A stretch of DNA of 64,000 bases from an uncultured Ruminococcus sp. (GTDB lineage: Bacteria > Bacillota > Clostridia > Oscillospirales > Ruminococcaceae), in contig CANQWR010000001.1 in assembly GCA_947627625.1 (NCBI GenBank), positions 244,448 through 308,447 on the forward strand, in the 5' to 3' direction. A program made the position numbers and the translations under genes. Of this stretch, positions 13,065 through 60,347 are shown in pieces. The notes below the pieces were generated by a model. That model was not told the DNA's origin. It worked only from the letters and a program-made list of their open reading frames with translations, and did no database searches. Positions within the stretch are counted from its first letter, which is position 1. Every line of letters begins with the position of its first letter.

Positions 13065-13265
13065 AGATGAACGATAGGGGACAGGGGTTTTGTGTACAAC
13101 ACGCCCGTTTCCCATCTTTTCCCTGTTTACATCATGGGGGGTTCGGGGGGATACTTCCCCCCGACGGGGGTTTGGGGGCAGAGCCCCCAATGGGGGTTCA
13201 GGGGGCAAAGCCCCCTGCCTCCTATCGTTCTAACAGGGGTTCAGGGGGCGAAATTCTCCGTCACC
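13065..13265 (-). repeat. GC-rich multi-hairpin intergenic repeat, locus 2 (reverse orientation)
   Basis: catggggggttcggggggatacttccccccgacgggggtttgggggcagagcccccaatgggggttcagggggcaaagccccctgcctcctatcgtt, reverse complement of loci 3, 6 and 8. Confidence 0.9.
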
Positions 13266-13534: not shown

Positions 13535-14683
13535 ATGGCAAATTTATCTAACGGAAAGAAAATAGCTATCGGGGGAATTTCAGTCGTGGCGGTCGCAGGG
13601 ATTGTTTGCGGAGTGCTGAAAAGTTCACTGATAAGCAAGGCGGAGGCGAGTGAGATTGCACTCGGTGACGCAGGTCTCAGTGAGGGGGAAGTCACCGCTC
13701 TCAGGACCAAGCTCGATTTTGACGACGGACATTTTCAGTATGACGTTGATTTTTACAGCAACGGCATAGAGTACGAGTACACCATACAGGCAAAGGACGG
13801 GGGAGTTATTTCAAGGGACGTTGACGGCGGCAATTTCGTTCAGCGTGAGACCCCGTCTCAGAATACACAGCAGGAGACTTCACCCGAATCTTCAGAAGTT
13901 CCGAGTGATTTTTCGTCACAGGACAGTCAGGCGGAGAGCGTTCCGAATGAGACACCCGTTTCGGAAGCACCTGTTCAGTCCGATATACAGTCGGGGGAGA
14001 TAACTCTTGAAAACGCAAAAGAAATAGCTCTCAAAGACGCAGGGCTTGCGGAGTCGGACGTTACTTTTACAAAGCAGAAGTCCGACATAGATAACGGCGT
14101 GTCAATCTATGATATAGAGTTTGTGACGGCGGACACAGAATATGACTACGAAATAAACGCTCTTGACGGCACTGTCTATGAAAAGAGTACCGAGGGCATA
14201 CAAGGAGCGGGTACAAATAATCAGCAGTCTGGGGAGATAACTCTTGAAAACGCAAAAGAAATAGCTCTCAAAGACGCAGGACTTGCAGAGACGGACGTTA
14301 CTTTTATAAAGCAGAAGTTCGATATAGATAACGGCGTGTCGGTCTATGACATAGAGTTTGTGACGGCGGACACAGAATATGACTACGAAATAAACGCTCT
14401 TGACGGTACGGTTTATGAGAAGAGTACCGAGAGCATACAGGGAGCGGGTGCAAATAATCAGCAGTCGGGGGAGATTACTCTTGACGATGCCAAGGCAATT
14501 GCACTCTCCGATGCGGGACTTGCCGAGACTGACGTTACTTTCACAAAGCAGGATATTGACAGAGATGACGGACGGACACAGTACGAGATAGAATTTTACT
14601 ACGATCAGACCGAATATGAGTACACCATTGACGCTGTGACAGGGGATATACTGGAGCGTGACACCGATTCCCACAACATATAA
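13535..14683 (+). CDS. Membrane-anchored protein with four PepSY-like domains
   Basis: N-terminal TM anchor; repeated GEITLxxAKxIALxDAGLAExDVTFxKQ...YDIEFVTADTEYDYEINALDGTVYE PepSY pattern. Confidence 0.88.
   Translation: MANLSNGKKIAIGGISVVAVAGIVCGVLKSSLISKAEASEIALGDAGLSEGEVTALRTKLDFDDGHFQYDVDFYSNGIEYEYTIQAKDGGVISRDVDGGNFVQRETPSQNTQQETSPESSEVPSDFSSQDSQAESVPNETPVSEAPVQSDIQSGEITLENAKEIALKDAGLAESDVTFTKQKSDIDNGVSIYDIEFVTADTEYDYEINALDGTVYEKSTEGIQGAGTNNQQSGEITLENAKEIALKDAGLAETDVTFIKQKFDIDNGVSVYDIEFVTADTEYDYEINALDGTVYEKSTESIQGAGANNQQSGEITLDDAKAIALSDAGLAETDVTFTKQDIDRDDGRTQYEIEFYYDQTEYEYTIDAVTGDILERDTDSHNI
13991..14683 (+). repeat. In-frame tandem repeat, 237 bp period (two full units plus a diverged third)
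   Basis: Units begin at 13991, 14228 and 14465; period 237 bp = 79 codons; first two units almost identical. Confidence 0.92.
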
Positions 14684-14689
14684 ATAAAA

Positions 14690-14724
14690 TAAAAAATGCA
14701 CGTCTTTAAGGCGTGCATTTTTTA
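14690..14724. terminator. Intrinsic terminator
   Basis: aaaaaatgcacg-tctttaagg-cgtgcatttttt. Confidence 0.85.
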
Positions 14725-14730
14725 TCGGAA

Positions 14731-14907
14731 TCAATATGCAGTTATTATATTCTCCACATATTTTTTCATATCCTCTTTCGAGTCAACAGCGTGAGTACCG
14801 CTGACTATCTGCCATTTCTCCGCTTCGGAGAGAGAATTAAATTTGTACATTGCCTCCGTATTCATTGCAAGAGCGGTACGGAAGTTTACGGGAATTTCAA
14901 AATTCAT
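14731..14907 (-). CDS. Small hypothetical protein (58 aa)
   Basis: MNFEIPVNFRTALAMNTEAMYKFNSLSEAEKWQIVSGTHAVDSKEDMKKYVENIITAY; ATG overlaps preceding stop (TAATG); absent from supplied ORF track. Confidence 0.65.
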   Translation of the reverse strand: MNFEIPVNFRTALAMNTEAMYKFNSLSEAEKWQIVSGTHAVDSKEDMKKYVENIITAY

Positions 14908-15026
14908 TACATATCCTCTCTGACAAAGCCGTCCTCAGAACTGTCATCGGGACTGCTTGCGGAGTTCTTTACAGAACTGTCGTCGTCACGTCTTGAAGGC
15001 TGATTTTGTTTTTTCTTTTTTGACAT
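14907..15026 (-). CDS. Small hypothetical protein (39 aa)
   Basis: MSKKKKQNQPSRRDDDSSVKNSASSPDDSSEDGFVREDM; purine-rich RBS (GGGGTGAGAGT) before ATG; translationally coupled to the next ORF. Confidence 0.55.
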   Translation of the reverse strand: MSKKKKQNQPSRRDDDSSVKNSASSPDDSSEDGFVREDM

Positions 15027-15119
15027 ACTCTCACCCCCTGTACTATTCTGTGAAAATAGACCGCAATTATACGGGGCGTGAGAGAAAAAGTCCGTGGAAA
15101 ATTTTGTAAAAAGAAAAAA

Positions 15120-16145
15120 TCAGTCTCTTCTTATTTTGTCAATACAAGCGTTGAATACGTTCAGAATTTTCGGGTTGAACACTCCGCACTCGTTATTTGT
15201 TATCATGTTCACAGCCTTTTCGTGGGTGAACGCCGCCTTGTATACTCTCGGAGAAGTGAGAGCGTCATAGACATCAGCCACCGCCACGACTTGCGACCAT
15301 ATTGTAATTTCGTCCCCCTTAAGACCGTCGGGATAACCTCTGCCGTCCCATCTCTCGTGGTGATGACGGCAAATGTCGTAACTGTAGTTATAAATATCGT
15401 TGTCGATAATATCGGGGATTTCGGAGAGAATTTCACAGCCCTTTGTCGTGTGGGACTTCATTATCTCAAACTCCTCTTTTGTGAGACGACCGGGTTTTTG
15501 GAGAATGTTGTCGGGAATAGAAATTTTTCCGACATCGTGGAGTACTGAAGCCATAACTATCTTGTCGATTTCAGACCTCAGTTTGTGGTATTCGGGGTAC
15601 ATATCACAGACGGCAGTCATAAGTATTTTGGTCAGACCCCTTATCCGCTTGACGTGTTCGCCCGACTCACAATCCCTGAACTCTATAAGCGTGGCGAGAG
15701 TCTCCACCATTGAGAGATTCATCGCACTAAGACGTTCCACCTGCTCATTGACTATCTCTTCAAGGTCATTACGGTGACGGTACAGCTCTATAATATTTCC
15801 AACTCTGCACTGGACAAAATTTATAAAATATGGCTTTGTGATTACGTCAACAGCACCAAGTTTATAGGGTTTCATAAGTTTGTCCTGCTGATTTTCGCCC
15901 GTGATGATAAAGACGGGAATGTGGACTATCTTTCCGCTCTCGTTCATCTTTTCGAGGACCTCTATTCCGTCCATGACAGGCATGGTCAGATCGAGGAGAA
16001 CAGCCGATATCTTCTGACTGTCGATAATTTTAAGGGCTTCGAGACCATTTTCGGCTTCCAGCACATTGTAGGAGTCCTCAAAGGCGAATCTCAGAGTGTC
16101 TCTGTTTATCTCGTTGTCATCTACGACCAAAATTGTTTCACGCAT
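15120..16145 (-). CDS. Response regulator with HD-GYP phosphodiesterase output domain
   Basis: REC: ILVVDDNEINRDTL, LLDLTMPVMDG; HD-GYP: HDVGKISIPDNIL, HHERWDGRGYPDGLKGDEI. Confidence 0.93.
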   Translation of the reverse strand: MRETILVVDDNEINRDTLRFAFEDSYNVLEAENGLEALKIIDSQKISAVLLDLTMPVMDGIEVLEKMNESGKIVHIPVFIITGENQQDKLMKPYKLGAVDVITKPYFINFVQCRVGNIIELYRHRNDLEEIVNEQVERLSAMNLSMVETLATLIEFRDCESGEHVKRIRGLTKILMTAVCDMYPEYHKLRSEIDKIVMASVLHDVGKISIPDNILQKPGRLTKEEFEIMKSHTTKGCEILSEIPDIIDNDIYNYSYDICRHHHERWDGRGYPDGLKGDEITIWSQVVAVADVYDALTSPRVYKAAFTHEKAVNMITNNECGVFNPKILNVFNACIDKIRRD

Positions 16146-16185
16146 TCATATACCTCCATATTTTATAAGTGCCGGATTTTGCGAG

Positions 16186-16536
16186 TCACTTGTATTTTTT
16201 TATGCAGTCGAGAATTTTTTCCTGAACGGGGAGAGTGTCCGACATAATCTGTTTTGCGGCAGAGAAGTCGCCCGAACGTATTGCGGACACAACTCCGTCA
16301 TAGCCCTTGAAAAGGGGAGTGAGGGAGAGATTTCCCGTAACGCCTTTGAGGGTGTGGGCATTTTTTTCAGCCTGTTCAAAGTCACCGCTGTCTATAAAAG
16401 ACATAACTTCGGTGCTTTCGGCGTTTGCGACAAATTTTCCGAGCATTCTCTCATAGAATGCGGAGTTGTTCATAAATCTTGCGAGTGCCTCATCTGTGTT
16501 GACACCCATTTCCTTGAGTTCGGTTAAAAGACTCAT
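16186..16536 (-). CDS. Hpt (histidine phosphotransfer) domain protein
   Basis: FEQAEKNAHTLKGVTGNLSLTPL, the Hpt AHTLKG signature. Confidence 0.9.
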   Translation of the reverse strand: MSLLTELKEMGVNTDEALARFMNNSAFYERMLGKFVANAESTEVMSFIDSGDFEQAEKNAHTLKGVTGNLSLTPLFKGYDGVVSAIRSGDFSAAKQIMSDTLPVQEKILDCIKKYK

Positions 16537-16561
16537 TTTGAATCCTCCTTGTGTAGTGTAA

Positions 16562-19189
16562 TTAGTTATTATTTTTCTCATCACTGAGATATTTCCTCAG
16601 AACATCGAAAAGGTCTTCAATGTTCAGTGGTTTTGCTATGTGGTCATTCATACCGCTTTCAATAGCGAGTTTTCTGTCCTCATTGAAAGCGTTTGCAGTC
16701 ATTGCGACTATCGGTATTTTGGAAGCGTCAGGGTTGGGAAGTTTCCTTATAGCCCTTGTGGCATCGTAACCGTTCATTATGGGCATTTGAACGTCCATAA
16801 GAATGAGGTCATAGTCACCTTTTCTGAAATTCTCCATTTTTTCAACGGCAATAGTACCGTCTTCGGCGGTGTCAACGACAAATCCGCTCTCTGTCAGTAT
16901 CTCCTGAGCAATTTCACGGTTCAGTTCGTTGTCCTCCACAAGGAGAATTTTCTTTCCGCTCATTGACTCGTCACTGACAGGCAGTATCGCATTTTCGACT
17001 TCGGGATCAGGCTTGCCTATTGCCGAGAGTAGAGTACTCCTGAGTGTGGAGAGGAAAATAGGCTTGTTACAGAACGCCGTCACACCCGCTTCACGGGCTT
17101 CCTCTTCAATATTTGTCCAGTCGTAAGCGGTGAGAATAATTATCGGTGCGTTGTCCCCAATGACCTTTCTTATCTGTCGGACCGTCTCCACGCCGTTGAG
17201 GTCGGGGAGTTGCCAGTCTACGATATAGGCGTCAAAAGCGTCAGCGAGTTCAAAGGACTGCTTTGCGTGCAGGACAGCCTCTTTTCCCGAGAGAGTCCAG
17301 TTTGCACGCATACCGAGCTGTACAAGCATTTTCGTGACACTGTCACAGATAGTGTAGTCATCGTCCACAACAAGGGCGTGGAGACCTTCAAGTTCCTTAA
17401 TTATCTCCACTTTTTTACGCTCTGTCTGTAGACGCATATCGAGTTTTATGACGTACTCCGTACCCTTGCCCTGTTCACTGAAAACTTCGATACTTCCGCC
17501 CATCATGTCGATTGTATTTTTAGCGATAGCCATTCCGAGACCCGTTCCCTGAATACCGCTCACCGTGGACGTATTTTCACGCTCAAACGGTTCAAAGACG
17601 TGCTTTACAAACTCCTTGCTCATACCTATACCCGTGTCTTTCACACGTATTTCGTACGTCGCATAGCCGTCGGGAGCACCGTTCAGCTGTTTGAATACGA
17701 GTGTCACGGAACCGCCCGAGGGAGTAAATTTTATGGCATTGCTTATAAGGTTAAGCAGAACCTGATTCAGATGGAGTTTGTCACAGAAAACATCTTCGTC
17801 TATTACGTCTATAGTGTCGATAAAGAAATTCAGCTGTTTTGCCTGAATCTGACTCTGCATTATATTTCGGAGGTCGTGGAGAATATCGGGCAGACTGCAC
17901 TCTATCTCCTCTATATCGACACGTCCGCTCTCTATACGGCTCATGTCGAGAATGTCGTTTATCAGACTTAAAAGATGATTGCTTGACGAGAGTATTTTGG
18001 ACAGGTAGTCCTTTACACGCTCTTTGTTGTCGATATTTGTTGCAGCGAGAGTGGTGTAACCTATAATTGCGTTCATGGGAGTGCGTATATCGTGGGACAT
18101 ATTCGACAGGAACATAGTCTTTGCACGCTCCGCATTTTCGGCTTTAATAAGACGCTCTTCAAGAACAGCTTTTTCGAGTGTGGACGATGCGTTGTGTATT
18201 GTCCACATCAGATATACTATCATCACAACGGCTTCCGTCAGGAGCAGAAAAATGCACACTTTCCTTATATTGTGGACATTTGCGAAAATTTCCCTTTCGG
18301 GCACGGACATACAGATAGTCCAGTTTTCGGGCTTTTTCATTCCGGACTCTTCGTCTTCAACGACTTTCATAGGTTCATAATACAAATAAAGATATTCGTC
18401 GATAGTAGTCGACTTGAAAACAGTTATACCCGATTGTCCCGCAAGAAGTTTACTGCGGAACTCATCCTCACTGTCGCCTTTTTTCACTTTCCTGTACATG
18501 AAGTCTTTCAGATTTCCGAGAGAATTGTGAAAAGTGTCCATGAGAAAATCGCCCGTATTTCTGTCCACAATGTAGAAACAAGCCTCATTGTTGTAGTACA
18601 TATCATCCAGATTCAGACTTTTTGGGAGTGAAGCGAGGTCGGTGGAGGAGAAGAGCATAGCGACAGTCTCACCGTTTTTTACGACGGGCATATAGTGTCT
18701 TATGACGAGCCTGCCGTCGTTGAAAATACTCTCTGTCCTGCCTGTTATTATCTCACCCTTTTCTATCTCTGTCTCAAAGGAAATTTTTCCCGAAACGTCG
18801 CTTATCGTCTCAGGGGAAATATTTTTGGGAGATATTAAAATATCGTCGGGCAGCAGGAGAAAAATATCGGTAGTCGGAGTGAGTTTGTTGTACTGTTCCA
18901 TAATCGGCTGGACATTTTCGGGTTCAAAATCGTTTTCAATTGCGAGAACGTCCGCAACAGATGACAGCAGCTGACTGTCACGGTTTATTTTTGAACTTAT
19001 GTCGTTTGTGACGGACTTCATTATCTCCTGTGTTCTTTCAAGGGAACGCCGTTCCGTGAGAGTGTTTATGCGGAAATAGGAGAGAACCATTACCACGGTT
19101 GTCACCAGTATCACAACAAGAGCTGCAATGACATTCTTTTCCCTCAGTTTACTCTTCTCTTTTATATTGACTGTTTTTTGTTCATTCAT
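16562..19189 (-). CDS. Hybrid sensor histidine kinase with extracytoplasmic Cache-like sensor and two receiver domains
   Basis: N-terminal TM; FLSNMSHDIRTPMNAIIGYT H-box; GTGLGMAIAKNTIDMMGG; REC1 VDWQLPDLNG; REC2 LMDVQMPIMNG. Confidence 0.93.
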   Translation of the reverse strand: MNEQKTVNIKEKSKLREKNVIAALVVILVTTVVMVLSYFRINTLTERRSLERTQEIMKSVTNDISSKINRDSQLLSSVADVLAIENDFEPENVQPIMEQYNKLTPTTDIFLLLPDDILISPKNISPETISDVSGKISFETEIEKGEIITGRTESIFNDGRLVIRHYMPVVKNGETVAMLFSSTDLASLPKSLNLDDMYYNNEACFYIVDRNTGDFLMDTFHNSLGNLKDFMYRKVKKGDSEDEFRSKLLAGQSGITVFKSTTIDEYLYLYYEPMKVVEDEESGMKKPENWTICMSVPEREIFANVHNIRKVCIFLLLTEAVVMIVYLMWTIHNASSTLEKAVLEERLIKAENAERAKTMFLSNMSHDIRTPMNAIIGYTTLAATNIDNKERVKDYLSKILSSSNHLLSLINDILDMSRIESGRVDIEEIECSLPDILHDLRNIMQSQIQAKQLNFFIDTIDVIDEDVFCDKLHLNQVLLNLISNAIKFTPSGGSVTLVFKQLNGAPDGYATYEIRVKDTGIGMSKEFVKHVFEPFERENTSTVSGIQGTGLGMAIAKNTIDMMGGSIEVFSEQGKGTEYVIKLDMRLQTERKKVEIIKELEGLHALVVDDDYTICDSVTKMLVQLGMRANWTLSGKEAVLHAKQSFELADAFDAYIVDWQLPDLNGVETVRQIRKVIGDNAPIIILTAYDWTNIEEEAREAGVTAFCNKPIFLSTLRSTLLSAIGKPDPEVENAILPVSDESMSGKKILLVEDNELNREIAQEILTESGFVVDTAEDGTIAVEKMENFRKGDYDLILMDVQMPIMNGYDATRAIRKLPNPDASKIPIVAMTANAFNEDRKLAIESGMNDHIAKPLNIEDLFDVLRKYLSDEKNNN

Positions 19190-19273
19190 GCAGACCCCTC
19201 CTTATACTGCCGAAACCTCCAATATAATTATAGCGGTATATTGGACAGATGTCAAGGGGAAATTGCAATATAT

Positions 19274-22200
19274 TTATTTTATATGTGACTCCTGCACAAA
19301 TCGTCTTATGGTATCCGACACCTCTTTCGGTATGGGAGTGGGTTCAAATACGGGACGGTTTATATAATAGCCCTGTAGGAGGTCTACACCGCATTTTATG
19401 ACGGTTTTCAGCTCACTCTCTGTCTCGACACCCTCAGCAAGAACGAGTATATTTTTGGGCTTTACAAGTTTTACAAGATTGCTGATTATAGTCCTCCTGC
19501 TGATGTCTTTGTCGCAACCGCTTATTATTGACCTGTCTATTTTTATAATATTGGGGTTCATAGTTATCAGGGCGTACTCACTGTTATAGCCCGTACCGAA
19601 GTCGTCAAGGGCAGTCAGAGCGTTCCACTTCTTGACACGTTCAAGTTTGAGTTTGCTGTAGTCCTCGTTGACGTTCTCACTCTCCAGTATTTCAAGTACA
19701 ACATTTTGGAGAAGTTCGGGGTATAGCGATTCCACTATGTCAATGTCACTCTGTTCAAGAATGCAGTTTGATATGGAGTTTATAAATATATGTGCATCGT
19801 GAGGGATTCTGCCCTCATCGATTTGCTTTTTGAAGTCGCTGAGAGCCTTTGTCCACGTCAGACGCTCTATTTCGTACAGTTTCGCACCCGTCTTTGCTAT
19901 TCGGAGAAGTTCAAGAGGGGATTGGAGTACGGTTGACTGCGGACGCATAAGAGCCTCATAGCCGAAAATGTCGCCCGTCTTTACGGACACAATTGAGTGA
20001 AAAGCGTACCTTATACTGCACTCGTCAATAATTCTGTTCATCTCCTCAACGCCGTTTATGAGAACGGAGTCCTTAGCATAGGCACTCATGTCAAATTCAG
20101 CCATTTCGCCCTTTGTGGAGTGCTTTATCGTGTACATTGCGAAATCTGCGTACTTCATGAGCATTTCATATGATTCGGAGTTGTCGGGATACCACGCTAT
20201 ACCACCGCTTGCCCTGATCTTGAAGTGTGTGCCGTCCGCAAGCAGACAGTAAGTGTGAGCCATCTTTTCACGGACTTCATTTATAACTTTTCTCACATCG
20301 TCCTTTGAGGCAAATCCCCACAGACAGATATTAAATTCGTCACCCGAAAGGCGTGAGACTATACCGCCGTAATTCTGAAAGGCTTTTAGGGTAGTGGCAG
20401 CAGTTTTTATATAGTCGTCACCGAAATCGTGACCGTAAGTGTCGTTTACATATTTGAGATTGTCAAGGTCGAGCATTATAAAAGCCGTGACACCGAGTTT
20501 TTCGGGGTCTCTGAAAAGCGATTCGAGTTCCCTGTAGTAAGCGTGCCTGTTCAGCAGACCTGTTATGCTGTCGTAGTCACGTTCGTACTCTATACGCTTT
20601 TTCTCCATGACCGTGCTTGTAACGTCCTGCAAAATGCCGATACTCTTGTTATTGTTGTGTACGAGACTTAGTTTCATCCAGACGGTAGTGCCGTCCTCCT
20701 GATTTATACTGTACTCCCTGACATAGTCCGTCTGTGAGTCAACGGGGATTTTTTCGATACTGTCAGCTATGACCTGCCTTGTCTCTTCGGCGATTATGTT
20801 GTCAAGGAAGGACTGCCTGCTCATGACAACGTCCTCGTTGGGCTGGATAGGGAAATTCAGGAGTTTCAGCAGACTCTGTCCGACAAAAACGCTGTCATCG
20901 AGACTGTCGTACATAAAAGTACCAATGCCTATATCGGACATTCTTATCATTTTTGATACCTGTGAGGAGAAGTTCTGCACATTTATCTGTAGTTGAGTTA
21001 TAGCATCGGTCATCTTGTCGAGTTCATAAATATTTGAGGGTTCAAATTTTATGACTTCACTGTACTCACGGCTTGAGTTCATAATTTTTATTGCCGACGA
21101 AATAGGAGCGACAATTTTTCTGCTGCTTAAAATAATTACTATAAAACTTCCTACTATTGATATGATTGCCGACATTATGAGTATATTTACAAGAAAGTCC
21201 ATAGGTTTCAGGACACTCGCCCTGTCGGCAACTGAAATCAGAGCCCATTTTTCGTCCGAATAGGGACTGTTGTCGTTGTATAGATTTATGTACTGTATAC
21301 TTCCCGCCGAACTTATATTTGATTTGAGGTCAAAGGAATAAACGCCCTCCTCAATTTTTTCGGCAGATTTGAGAGTTGTCTCGTTCTCGACAAGTCTGTT
21401 AAAAGATATACCCGAGTGCATTATTATGTCGAAATAGTCCGAACCCGCAGGGCTTTTTCCGAGGACGTAACAGGCGGTCTCACTCAAAAAATCGTTCACG
21501 GGCAGGTGTTCAAGAATATTGTTTTCCGTCAGACCAATTCCGAGTACGCCGTAGACCGTGCCGTCGTCGAAAATCAGCGGAACTGTGTACTTCATACTGT
21601 CGGAAGCACTTTTTGTCACCTGAGAAAAATCGCTCCAATAGCCGAGGTCATTGAGAGAGAGGTCGGGATTCTGCTCTGCATTTTGGATAGTCCTGTAGTA
21701 GTAGTCATAATTTTTGGTGTCGGAGGGGTCGGATTCAAAGTGCAAAGTCCAGCCCGAGTCGAGAATTATTCCGAGATTTTGCGATATGGACGAAAAGCCC
21801 GTCTCCATAAGCAAATCGCTGTACCCCGCATCGGTCTTTGTGTCGAGGTCACGCAGATAGAGAGCCGCTTTTGAGTTGGTCTTTCCGCCCTCATCGTCGT
21901 AGAGACTACCCGTCTCAAGCATTATGTAGACATCATTTGCCATACTTCTGCGGAGGAGGTTCACGAGACTGTCCACGGAGGATTCAACAATATCTTTATT
22001 TAATTGTTTATTCGTCTTTATGTCGGAAATGTCGAGACCATCTTTTTTGAGTACTTTGTCCACGATAGAATTTACCTTTTCGGCAGTCTCATTGACAGCA
22101 GGGATTTTCAGCTGAAATTCATTTTCGATATAATTTTTTCTGTTCTCAGTCTTTTCTATCAGGGTGTTATAGGCGTACTGCCTTATATAAGTAAATTCTC

Positions 22201-22351
22201 CGCCTGCAATCAGGACGGAGAAAAAAGTTGCAAGCTGAAACAGGACGAGAAACAGCATTGGCAGGAGCAGTCTGAAAATCAGCTTTGATTTTCTCTTGTT
22301 TTTTCTCTTTGATTTTTTATCTTCTGACGGCAAATTCAGGTTTTCAGCCAT
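19274..22351 (-). CDS. Membrane-bound GGDEF/EAL protein with extracytoplasmic sensor and PAS-like region
   Basis: RLSGDEFNICLWG (GGDEF variant SGDEF), FGYEALMRPQ (EAL), LDDFGTGYNSE, LAEGVETESEL. Confidence 0.92.
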   Translation of the reverse strand: MAENLNLPSEDKKSKRKNKRKSKLIFRLLLPMLFLVLFQLATFFSVLIAGGEFTYIRQYAYNTLIEKTENRKNYIENEFQLKIPAVNETAEKVNSIVDKVLKKDGLDISDIKTNKQLNKDIVESSVDSLVNLLRRSMANDVYIMLETGSLYDDEGGKTNSKAALYLRDLDTKTDAGYSDLLMETGFSSISQNLGIILDSGWTLHFESDPSDTKNYDYYYRTIQNAEQNPDLSLNDLGYWSDFSQVTKSASDSMKYTVPLIFDDGTVYGVLGIGLTENNILEHLPVNDFLSETACYVLGKSPAGSDYFDIIMHSGISFNRLVENETTLKSAEKIEEGVYSFDLKSNISSAGSIQYINLYNDNSPYSDEKWALISVADRASVLKPMDFLVNILIMSAIISIVGSFIVIILSSRKIVAPISSAIKIMNSSREYSEVIKFEPSNIYELDKMTDAITQLQINVQNFSSQVSKMIRMSDIGIGTFMYDSLDDSVFVGQSLLKLLNFPIQPNEDVVMSRQSFLDNIIAEETRQVIADSIEKIPVDSQTDYVREYSINQEDGTTVWMKLSLVHNNNKSIGILQDVTSTVMEKKRIEYERDYDSITGLLNRHAYYRELESLFRDPEKLGVTAFIMLDLDNLKYVNDTYGHDFGDDYIKTAATTLKAFQNYGGIVSRLSGDEFNICLWGFASKDDVRKVINEVREKMAHTYCLLADGTHFKIRASGGIAWYPDNSESYEMLMKYADFAMYTIKHSTKGEMAEFDMSAYAKDSVLINGVEEMNRIIDECSIRYAFHSIVSVKTGDIFGYEALMRPQSTVLQSPLELLRIAKTGAKLYEIERLTWTKALSDFKKQIDEGRIPHDAHIFINSISNCILEQSDIDIVESLYPELLQNVVLEILESENVNEDYSKLKLERVKKWNALTALDDFGTGYNSEYALITMNPNIIKIDRSIISGCDKDISRRTIISNLVKLVKPKNILVLAEGVETESELKTVIKCGVDLLQGYYINRPVFEPTPIPKEVSDTIRRFVQESHIK

Positions 22352-22369
22352 GTAAACACCCCATCTCCA

Positions 22370-23875
22370 TTATGACACCGACACGGCAGATTCAAGTCCC
22401 GAGACAAATCCATCATACCATGTGTCAAATGCACTGTCCGAAATGTAGTCGCTCACGGCAGTGTCACGGCTCTCACCCGAAGCTATTTTCTGTGAGACCT
22501 CCTCACGGGCACTCACGGCAGTATCCTGAATGTAGTTGCCGAGAAAATCTCTCGCCTCAGAGGACTTGTCAAAGGGTTTCTGAGTGTAGAGGTTGTAGGA
22601 ATTTATCTCCGAGACAGCGGTCTCCATAGCGGAGAGGACTATATTATTCTCCTCCGAGTTTTCACCCGACTGGAAAGTACCCGAAATTGCGGACAGGTCG
22701 TTTGCATCCTTCTTGACAGGCAGATAGCCGGAGTTCACGGAAAACTCTATATTTCTCTCCTTTTCTGTTACCCATTTCAAGAAAGTCGCACAGGCTCTCT
22801 CTTTTTTCTCATTCGATTTCACGACAGCCATTCCCGCACCCTGCTGGACTACATAGGGTTCGGTGTTCTCAAAATTCGGAACGGGGAGGACAAGAGCGTC
22901 AATAGGGTGGGTGGACTCGTCATTTATGGTCACGGAGTCGGGGAAGTAGGAGGCACCAGTAGTTGAGCAGACCATTGCAATTATAGCACCGATTTTTGTG
23001 TCATCACTCCTGAAACGGCTCTGTGCAAAGTAACAGCCCTTTACATAGGGGACATAGTAGCAGTCCCAAAGCCGTCTCATAACATCTTTGTCGGTGTTCA
23101 TAACAGTCTCGTCGCCCTCTTGTGTGAAAAATTCAAGTCCCAACTGCCTTGCACCCACTATGACATAATTTGCAACGGAGTCACGTCCGAAAAAGGCTTT
23201 ACCGTCATCGGGAATATCGGGAGTGAGAGCGTCCGTGTACTGATAGTACTTTTCGGCAGTTTCCGCAAGCCCCTCCCAAGTGGACATTGAGTTCACGGAG
23301 ACATTTTCGGAGTCGGCAAACTCCTGCCAGTCAGTGACGTTCAACATCATAATTTCTGTACTCTTTGCGGTCGGGAAAATTTTCAGTTCATCAGCACCGT
23401 TGAACCTGCCCTCTTCAAGATAGCCGTCAATATACTCACCCAGTTCGTCTTCCGTGAAGTATTCGGACAGGTCAACAATACAACCCATTTTGTCGGCAAT
23501 ATATGCAGTTTCGGCGTACGATGCGAACATATCGGGAGGAGTCTCCGCTCCAACATCTCCTTTGAGAGACGCAATTATACTGTCAGCGAGGTCGGCGATA
23601 GTACCCTTGCTTCTTGCCTCGGCTACTATGCCTTGCTGATGACCGACAGTCTCATTAAATTCAACTATCATGTTGTCGAAATTTTCCTGCTGTACGCCGT
23701 TGTAGTAATGCCATATAGTTATATTTGCGATGTCGTCCGCACTTTTGCTGTCGCTTTTTACTTCACTCTCACTCGAAGACTGCTGTGTATCGGAGGCACA
23801 GCCGCAGAGGGACATACCCATACACAGGGCAAGAGTTGCCGAGATAGTTTTAATTATATTTGATTTAATAGCCAT
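22370..23875 (-). CDS. Extracellular solute-binding lipoprotein (family 1, carbohydrate-binding type)
   Basis: Lipobox LCGCAS after signal peptide; ANITIWHYYNGVQQENFDNMIVEFNE; KERACATFLKWVTEKERNIEFSVNSGYLPVKK. Confidence 0.88.
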   Translation of the reverse strand: MAIKSNIIKTISATLALCMGMSLCGCASDTQQSSSESEVKSDSKSADDIANITIWHYYNGVQQENFDNMIVEFNETVGHQQGIVAEARSKGTIADLADSIIASLKGDVGAETPPDMFASYAETAYIADKMGCIVDLSEYFTEDELGEYIDGYLEEGRFNGADELKIFPTAKSTEIMMLNVTDWQEFADSENVSVNSMSTWEGLAETAEKYYQYTDALTPDIPDDGKAFFGRDSVANYVIVGARQLGLEFFTQEGDETVMNTDKDVMRRLWDCYYVPYVKGCYFAQSRFRSDDTKIGAIIAMVCSTTGASYFPDSVTINDESTHPIDALVLPVPNFENTEPYVVQQGAGMAVVKSNEKKERACATFLKWVTEKERNIEFSVNSGYLPVKKDANDLSAISGTFQSGENSEENNIVLSAMETAVSEINSYNLYTQKPFDKSSEARDFLGNYIQDTAVSAREEVSQKIASGESRDTAVSDYISDSAFDTWYDGFVSGLESAVSVS

Positions 23876-24214
23876 TTTATTAACACCCCACAACATTTTG
23901 TTGTTTATCCGTAAATTGATTTAGTTTAATTTAATTATTTCATTACTAATCGGAGACTTTGTCGCCTGTTACCCTATTATATTATACATTATGGGAGAAT
24001 TTTTTGCAAGCGGGAGCAGAGACTTCTATATATTCAATAAAAAAAGAGGAAAATTTTATACATTATACACAAAAATCCGCAGAACTATCTCCACGGATTT
24101 TGATATTGGGATTTATTAGATTTATTAAAAAATTCAGAAATTGGGGGACTTCTCTGTGTAAGTTTTTATTATGGAGATTTCGGAGGACATTCCCTCGGAC
24201 TTCAAAATCACAAC

Positions 24215-24392
24215 GTTAGACCATCGTGGAGGGCGGGGGAACACGTTCCCCCCTGAACTTTTGTTAAGGGCTTTGCCCCAACTCCCCGTTAGGACGATAG
24301 GAGGCAGGGGGCGTTGCCCCCTGAACCCCCATTGGGGGCTCTGCCCCCAAACCCCCGTCGTGGGGAAGAATCCCCCCGAACCCCCCATGATA
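24215..24392 (+). repeat. GC-rich multi-hairpin intergenic repeat, locus 3
   Basis: ggacgataggaggcagggggcgttgccccctgaacccccattgggggctctgcccccaaacccccgtcgtggggaagaatccccccgaaccccccatgat. Confidence 0.92.
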
Positions 24393-30483: not shown

Positions 30484-30628
30484 CGGAGCTGTTTGGAAAA
30501 AACAGCTCCACGAAAAAATTTTTTCTTGAAATGGTTCTGTTTTCCCTGCGTTGGCATTATCCAAATCAGGTAAAAAGGGTCGAGAGCTGAAGCTCTCCTC
30601 TCAGCCTGAAACACAAGCTCCCCGAACA
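30484..30628 (-). promoter_or_regulatory. TPP riboswitch (THI element) with terminator-type expression platform
   Basis: Minus strand: CAGGCTGAGA...ACCCTTTTACCTGATTTGGATAATGCCAACGCAGGGAA, then GGAGCTGTTTTTTCCAAACAGCTCCGATTTTTG. Confidence 0.96.
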
Positions 30629-30741
30629 ATCCGGATTTTGTAAATTACGGTAAATATTATAGCACATTTTTCACAGTCTGTCAAGGTGTGAAGAGTGCAT
30701 AAAAAACGCACATTATTTTTGTGTATCATGACAAAAAATAT

Positions 30742-49767: not shown

Positions 49768-49868
49768 GAACGATTAGGGGCAGGGGGCTTTGCCCCTGAA
49801 CCCCCATTGGGGGCTCTGCCCCCAAACCCCCGTCGGGGGGAAGAATCCCCCCGAACCCCCCATGATGG
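49768..49868 (+). repeat. GC-rich multi-hairpin intergenic repeat, locus 6
   Basis: aacgattaggggcagggggctttgcccctgaacccccattgggggctctgcccccaaacccccgtcggggggaagaatccccccgaaccccccatgat. Confidence 0.93.
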
Positions 49869-60214: not shown

Positions 60215-60347
60215 TTTGGGGGGCTATGCCCCCCAAGCCCCCCGTGAACGATAGGAGGCAGGGGGCTTTGCCCCCTGAACCCCCATTGGGGGCTCTGCCC
60301 CCAAACCCCCGTCGGGGGGAAGAATCCCCCCGAACCCCCCATGATAG
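60215..60347 (+). repeat. GC-rich multi-hairpin intergenic repeat, locus 8
   Basis: ggggggctatgccccccaagccccccgtgaacgataggaggcagggggctttgccccctgaacccccattgggggctctgcccccaaacccccgtcggggggaagaatccccccgaaccccccatgat. Confidence 0.94.

Follow-up and report, generated by a model that had tools for sequence, protein, structure and literature searches.

A solute-binding lipoprotein and a GGDEF/EAL membrane protein as a probable two-protein receptor in Ruminococcus and other Clostridia

Introduction

The inputs of receptors that control cyclic di-GMP (c-di-GMP) are mostly unknown, and the examples of such receptors fed by a solute-binding protein (SBP) are proteobacterial in the literature consulted. 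NspS-MbaA and CuaD-CuaS are published precedents for SBP–sensor pairs (PMC8079147, PMC8967002; PMC10384115). Here we analysed a 64,000-nucleotide stretch of DNA (hereafter the window) from an uncultured Ruminococcus sp. (assembly GCA_947627625.1, contig CANQWR010000001.1, positions 244,448 to 308,447), in which five minus-strand genes encode a lipoprotein SBP, a membrane GGDEF/EAL protein, a hybrid histidine kinase, a standalone histidine phosphotransfer protein (Hpt) and a response regulator with a receiver (REC) and an HD-GYP domain. The explanation we favour, with good confidence, is that the SBP and the GGDEF/EAL protein constitute a two-protein extracytoplasmic receptor, next to which a kinase relay leads to the HD-GYP protein.

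In Vibrio cholerae, with homologues in Sinorhizobium and other proteobacteria, the gene of the signalling SBP NspS lies immediately upstream of the membrane GGDEF/EAL gene. The pair in the window has the same order, and its 18-nt gap agrees with the spacing of the NspS-MbaA type, at most about 20 nt or an overlap. Published work gives SGDEF as the motif of MbaA in both V. cholerae and S. meliloti and reports from V. cholerae genetics that both enzymatic domains matter (PMC8079147, PMC9993111). Unlike NspS-MbaA as described there, the present system resides in Clostridia and not in Proteobacteria, its SBP looks more like the UgpB/maltodextrin type than the PotD type, and its outputs are swapped for kinase or LuxR domains, a change that the NspS-MbaA accounts consulted do not report. 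The likeness is one of gene order and motifs; with an SBP that looks sugar-type, membership of the NspS-MbaA family would be putative at most.

CuaD, from the CuaD-CuaS-CuaR system of Ruminiclostridium cellulolyticum, is, like the window SBP, a clostridial lipoprotein of sugar type. It is not the transport SBP and binds the outer domain of its membrane sensor, a domain that alone binds none of the tested sugars (PMC10384115). Compared by description, its output differs from that in the window and consists of a histidine kinase (class I) with an AraC-type regulator, without c-di-GMP enzymes. In Salmonella, the STM1987/ArtI system resembles ours in that a c-di-GMP enzyme carries a dCache_1 domain and depends on a putative periplasmic binding protein for its arginine response (PMC8846402). 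The cue there is L-arginine, delivered via an arginine-binding protein, in contrast to the sugar/UgpB-type SBP of the window. In XylFII-LytS of Clostridium beijerinckii an SBP signals via the extracellular domain of a kinase, with an SBP of a different family, a LytS-type kinase and no c-di-GMP output. XylFII-LytS was named as a structural template in the CuaD study (PMC10384115). The NELoc loci of Clostridium perfringens were considered and set aside, the SBP (NELoc-3) and the GGDEF/EAL genes (NELoc-1) being on different plasmids. We found no description of the present clostridial SBP–sensor family in the literature covered, most subscription papers being outside that coverage. The SBP–dCache pair is real, widespread in Clostridia and apparently undescribed.

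Results

The SBP lineage is linked to a membrane sensor and not to permeases

The five genes run head-to-tail with gaps of 18, 84, 25 and 40 nt (Table 1), just as a preliminary description of this DNA had laid them out, and the motifs of their products are intact, including SGDEF, EALMR and DDFGTG, HDVGK and HHHERWDGRGYP, and the phospho-acceptor His and Asp residues. The same description had stated that no ABC (ATP-binding cassette) permease or ATPase gene neighbours the SBP, which holds at the locus, and had guessed that the SBP feeds a sensor instead. We gathered SBP homologues by similarity alone, ignoring their neighbours, from 149 genomes of the family, 391 of the class and a collection-wide scan, and then read the flanks. 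Among the 132 close homologues (>300 bits against the SBP profile, duplicates removed), 124 have a homologous sensor domain encoded in the adjacent same-strand gene and none has a permease beside it. Two of the others lie at contig ends and six have neither sensor nor permease; two of these six are broken genes next to the sensor or its remnant (split in L053/L149, fused in L063, where L numbers denote sampled loci). SBPs below 300 bits comprise 13 permease-linked and no sensor-linked cases. A FastTree tree was computed from 153 SBPs; on it, the split between sensor and permease linkage is a single change with support 100, the permease-linked relatives forming a separate clade, and the output type changes at least five times among GGDEF-EAL, hybrid kinase and membrane LuxR. 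The synteny therefore strongly supports the earlier guess that this SBP serves a membrane sensor and not a transporter.

The arrangement of the pair is highly regular, with the sensor gene downstream of the SBP gene in 123 of 124 pairs at a median gap of 21.5 nt. Attached to the sensor are GGDEF-EAL (57 loci), hybrid kinase (19), membrane LuxR/GerE regulator (13) or GGDEF alone (3), counts that cover the loci other than the 32 whose output gene lies past the end of the sampled DNA. Some of the 19 hybrid-kinase outputs, about 1300 aa long, also carry PAS-GGDEF; in L055, L150, L157 and L163 fusions of this size join sensor, PAS, GGDEF, histidine kinase and REC, the GGDEF motif being present in some only. 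Membrane-anchored LuxR/GerE factors with a homologous sensor and an SBP partner occur at L064, L066, L067, L069, L076, L194-L198 and other loci, and are probably one-component receptors fed by the SBP. The homology of these LuxR-type sensors to that of the window was first detected in a search that used no other query than the window sequence. The SBP–sensor family extends over Ruminococcus, Lachnospiraceae, Christensenella, Hungatella, Eisenbergiella, Blautia and divergent Clostridioides difficile lineages; in four loci of the latter name (L151, L154, L158 and L159) the SBP-GGDEF/EAL pair comes directly after motA-motB and a single small gene.

Given that the genes of a transport SBP and its permeases can lie apart, the window SBP might also be an orphan transport receptor for a permease encoded elsewhere, with its place beside the sensor incidental or a matter of co-regulation. 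The genome does encode three pairs of permeases that belong to the right superfamily, on contigs 4, 8 and 14. However, two of the three have a linked SBP_bac_8 gene of their own and the third has another lipoprotein gene immediately upstream. Together with the complete absence of permease linkage in the SBP clade and the persistence of the SBP–sensor linkage through changes of output domain, this makes the transport explanation very improbable.

The partner has a predicted dCache sensor and intact catalytic motifs

In the GGDEF/EAL protein the sensor lies in the region aa 1-430, and the SGDEF and EALMR motifs are at aa 669 and aa 799. An AlphaFold2 model of the sensor domain, built with 40 homologues, reached a predicted local distance difference test score (pLDDT) of 88.5 and shows, after a long N-terminal helix, two PAS-like folds in tandem. 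Foldseek matched it best to dCache domains, led by that of a Roseburia uracil chemoreceptor (E 7e-10), and on this model we assign the sensor as a dCache domain. Since chemoreceptor dCache domains among these matches have amino acids, uracil and amines as direct ligands, the domain could sense small molecules itself, with the SBP merely concentrating the ligand or being dispensable; the four intact SBP homologues that lack a linked sensor would fit such direct sensing. Yet one SBP lineage is linked near-exclusively to one sensor lineage, with one SBP per sensor, and in the best-studied clostridial parallel the sensor domain bound the SBP and not the sugars tested (PMC10384115). Direct sensing therefore seems improbable to us.

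As for the enzymatic domains, SGDEF is invariant in all 58 full-length GGDEF-EAL proteins, and the EAL residues are mostly kept among them, with ExLxR and DDxGxG largely intact. An RxxD inhibitory site was absent from the common variants of these 58 proteins. The preliminary description had left cyclic GMP-AMP (cGAMP) open as a product. Hypr GGDEF domains, the cGAMP synthases, are defined by a replaced Asp in the N-D-x-x-G-H-x-x-G-D motif. The window protein reads NDTYGHDFGD, and the motif Asp is retained in the listed variants, which cover at least 55 of the 58 proteins. Because the Asp that is swapped in Hypr enzymes is retained here, cGAMP is unlikely and was not favoured.

The SBP probably binds a sugar-type solute

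The AlphaFold2 model of the SBP has a pLDDT of 86. Its Foldseek matches are UgpB/UspB and maltose-, cyclic-glucan-, cello-oligosaccharide- and dinucleotide-binding SBPs at 12-19% identity, in agreement with a profile search; PotD is not among the listed structural and profile matches, the best of which are sugar- and UgpB-type. We tried to name the ligand from structure and dropped the attempt, as the UgpB, maltodextrin-, cello-oligosaccharide- and dinucleotide-types match about equally, and therefore only a broad class can be named. The conserved neighbour genes likewise gave no hint, the close flanks of the pair at 80 loci sharing no metabolic family. Judged from the model, an oligosaccharide or a solute of the sugar/glycerol phosphate type is the likeliest ligand.

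The kinase, Hpt and HD-GYP genes probably form a second unit

The cluster had been described as one operon. Its head-to-tail order is real, but a single transcript is doubtful, as the 84-nt gap upstream of the kinase contains a sigma-A-type TTGACA-17-TATAAT site matching the consensus at 12 of 12 positions, in the right orientation and with some 37 nt between its end and the start codon. Shuffled sequences gave an expectation of 0.02 such perfect sites per 64 kb, against 7 observed in the window, this one included. The same site recurs with a diverged spacer in the corresponding gap of L085, which lies on the same contig as L045 in a genome (G140) of a different genus of the family, with an SBP 69% identical; L085/L045 is the only relative found with matching kinase and Hpt. 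On account of this consensus promoter and its retention in L085, the cluster probably consists of two transcription units, SBP-GGDEF/EAL and kinase-Hpt-REC-HD-GYP followed by small open reading frames (ORFs). A promoter-like site precedes the first unit as well. No terminator-like site was found in the 84-nt gap, and thus read-through into the kinase unit is possible.

The extracytoplasmic domain of the kinase had no Pfam match by its sequence alone; its relatives match Cache models weakly, and the best matches in the PDB are sensor domains of kinases. Profile comparison relates it to the sensor of the GGDEF/EAL protein (E 1.5e-6). SBP orthologues (at least 56% identity) occur in 22 of 125 genomes of the genus, the window's included, whereas an orthologue of the kinase sensor was found in none of the 124 other genomes, the 21 that possess the SBP among them. 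The kinase-Hpt-HD-GYP arm is therefore a lineage-specific addition to a conserved SBP and GGDEF/EAL pair.

This distribution bears on the possibility that the five genes form one obligatory circuit, in which the same loaded SBP gates both the GGDEF/EAL protein and the kinase, and one ligand controls synthesis and both degradations. The preliminary description had proposed such a self-contained circuit from ligand through phosphorelay to c-di-GMP, of which the conserved pair and the intact motifs stand. The uninterrupted head-to-tail order without a terminator-like site speaks for it, as do the kinase and Hpt that accompany the pair in L085. All five components also occur in one same-strand run in Blautia hansenii (L156), the only such run, in which a PAS-type kinase comes first, followed by Hpt, SBP, a sensor-GGDEF protein with a split sensor, and REC-HD-GYP. 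A related set at L062 consists of SBP, sensor-kinase, two REC-HD-GYP and Hpt. Against an obligatory circuit stand the separate, conserved promoter of the kinase unit, the lack of a kinase-sensor orthologue elsewhere in the genus, the absence of HD-GYP from the L085 cluster, and the scarcity of Hpt or HD-GYP genes within the sampled flanks, where they occur in only 9 of 80 SBP–sensor loci with long flanks (L062 falls outside this count because of its truncated SBP). The complete five-gene synteny, a search for which across Ruminococcaceae the preliminary description had proposed, did not turn up in the 149 genomes of the family, 391 of the class and 125 of the genus as far as examined; only the pair is conserved, with kinase and Hpt retained in L045/L085. 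We regard one obligatory circuit as doubtful, and the earlier proposal of it as weakly supported.

Additionally, the sensor of the kinase is 24-27% identical to the sensors of five GGDEF proteins in the genus, one of them in the same genome, and all five adjoin an SBP-like lipoprotein gene. The lipoprotein is SBP_bac_1 in L230, a homologue of that protein in L236 and SBP_bac_5 in L235 and L237. At L238 a 631-aa lipoprotein stands in a matching arrangement; the other four are SBPs by Pfam or homology. The lipoproteins of L235 and L237 (genomes G558 and G605) are of the dipeptide type, and L238 belongs to genome G639. This pairing of the sensor family with SBPs elsewhere favours the single circuit too, and makes it plausible that the window kinase is also fed by an SBP. 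A parallel set of SBP, Cache-GGDEF and dCache-kinase-REC-REC genes, a further point for that circuit, lies on contig 1 at about 157.8-163.7 kb (L230:4783-10723). Its SBP is outside the lineage of the window SBP, and the sensor families are swapped.

A proposed two-protein receptor with a neighbouring relay

The reading we prefer, the two-protein receptor with a neighbouring relay, would work as follows. A dedicated, non-transport lipoprotein SBP would capture a small solute, and the loaded SBP would dock on the dCache domain of its membrane partner. Docking may then shift the partner between c-di-GMP synthesis through SGDEF and degradation through EAL, in one direction or the other, much as NspS does with MbaA. 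The hybrid kinase, probably expressed from its own promoter, would pass phosphate along a putative His-Asp-(Asp)-His(Hpt)-Asp route to the REC-HD-GYP protein, which would add a second c-di-GMP-degrading arm; the phospho-acceptor motifs along this relay (SHDIRTP, VDWQLPD, MDVQMP, HTLKG and LLDLTMP) are all intact. By analogy, the mode of action would be like that of NspS-MbaA and the kinase branch like that of CuaD-CuaS.

Several points weigh against this reading. Four intact SBP homologues (L058, L059, L129 and L210) have no adjacent sensor, and a dCache domain can bind ligands directly. Co-inheritance of SBP and sensor (r = 0.92 over 118 pairs) was dismissed as proof of contact, as linked genes co-inherit anyway. 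The kinase-Hpt-HD-GYP block is seldom linked to the pair. Moreover, the Hpt match is weak, at 20.2 bits against a Pfam cut-off of 24.6, with its HTLKG box intact; the Hpt of L085, 66% identical to it, is also weak (23.6 bits), while those of L156, L062 and L108 exceed the cut-off. Finally, the host assembly (2.04 Mb, the window within contig 1) is 87% complete, and a permease or a true partner could therefore be missing from it.

An extended version is that the SBP–dCache receptor is a transferable input module in gut Clostridia, constant in its partner and variable in its output (c-di-GMP enzyme, hybrid kinase or membrane-bound LuxR regulator), and that the one SBP of the window serves two different Cache receptors. 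One solute would then govern synthesis, EAL degradation and, by way of the phosphorelay, HD-GYP degradation. We consider this extension unlikely.

Concerning the target of the signal, no PilZ protein was found in the genome, with positive controls matched. Contig 16 carries a prepilin-peptidase-like gene and, beside it, the gene of a PilB-like ATPase whose N-terminal domain is MshEN. MshEN is a known c-di-GMP-binding domain. As this protein is the nearest recognisable c-di-GMP target, type IV pili and pilus-based adhesion are the most likely output, as predicted from gene content. No c-di-GMP riboswitch was found in the window; a scan of the genome gave no match either, the controls being equally silent and the scan hence uninformative.

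Other SBP genes of the genome

The genome contains nine SBP_bac_8 genes. Four of them have a GGDEF gene as neighbour, one of these belonging to the parallel set on contig 1, and a fifth is next to a dCache hybrid kinase; of the remaining four, two are permease-linked and two have neither kind of neighbour. With five of nine beside signalling genes, counting such SBPs as uptake would overestimate transport capacity. More broadly, the Clostridia harbour a large family whose transporter-like SBPs are probably signalling proteins. As such an SBP is amenable to soluble expression and ligand screening, it gives direct access to the cues of these sensors.

Sensor-GGDEF genes also lie next to SBP_bac_8/SBP_bac_1 genes on contig 2 (L213:7250-10025) and contig 5 (L231:5031-7817), with the GGDEF gene first. 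On contig 3 (L233:5170-7095) a 641-aa lipoprotein, an SBP domain fused to a 5'-nucleotidase C-terminal domain, is found beside a dCache hybrid kinase and may sense nucleotides.

Features of the cluster and its surroundings

Table 1 Features of the SBP-GGDEF/EAL and kinase units (window positions)
Feature	Position	Strand	Evidence
SBP, lipoprotein, SBP_bac_8 family	22370..23896	-	Pfam SBP_bac_8 1e-25; lipobox LCGC
Membrane protein, predicted dCache-SGDEF-EAL	19274..22351	-	Pfam GGDEF 1e-30, EAL 2e-40
Hybrid histidine kinase with putative Cache-type sensor, HisKA, HATPase_c and two REC; phospho-acceptor His in SHDIRTP	16562..19189	-	Pfam HisKA, HATPase_c, two Response_reg
Standalone Hpt (HTLKG)	16186..16536	-	Sub-threshold Pfam; HTLKG box
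REC-HD-GYP response regulator	15120..16145	-	Pfam Response_reg + HD_5; D in LLDLTMP, HDVGK, HHHERWDGRGYP
39-aa small ORF preceded by ribosome-binding site; no family match	14907..15026	-	
Small ORF, 58 aa; start overlaps stop of 39-aa ORF	14731..14907	-	Sub-threshold OmdA/YdeI-like match
Hairpin terminator, common to convergent PepSY gene and kinase-unit end	14688..14726	.	-17.3 kcal/mol, z -6.7
Candidate promoter of SBP-GGDEF/EAL unit, TTGCAA-17-TATAAT, 10/12	23981..24009	-	Consensus match alone
Perfect sigma-A-type promoter TTGACA-17-TATAAT, 5' of hybrid kinase	19227..19255	-	12/12 consensus; site recurs in L085
G+C-rich repeat sites	13174-13215, 24307-24348, 40054, 49783-49823, 55501, 60219-60302		

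The start codon of the SBP gene is more probably at 23878 than at 23896. The left edge that had been assigned to the cluster, 14731, is a real ORF end, but it belongs to two added small ORFs that precede the terminator. The product of the 58-aa ORF resembles OmdA/YdeI weakly, scoring 20.0 bits where the cut-off is 25.6. The convergent gene that shares the terminator with the kinase unit (13535-14683) encodes a membrane protein with four PepSY repeats. Elsewhere in the window, a thiamine pyrophosphate (TPP) riboswitch lies on the minus strand at 30525-30634, upstream of thiamine genes. A G+C-rich intergenic repeat with GGGGGCAGAGCCCCC palindromes occurs at 11 sites in the window, where 0.03 would be expected, and one copy of it is located upstream of the SBP gene.

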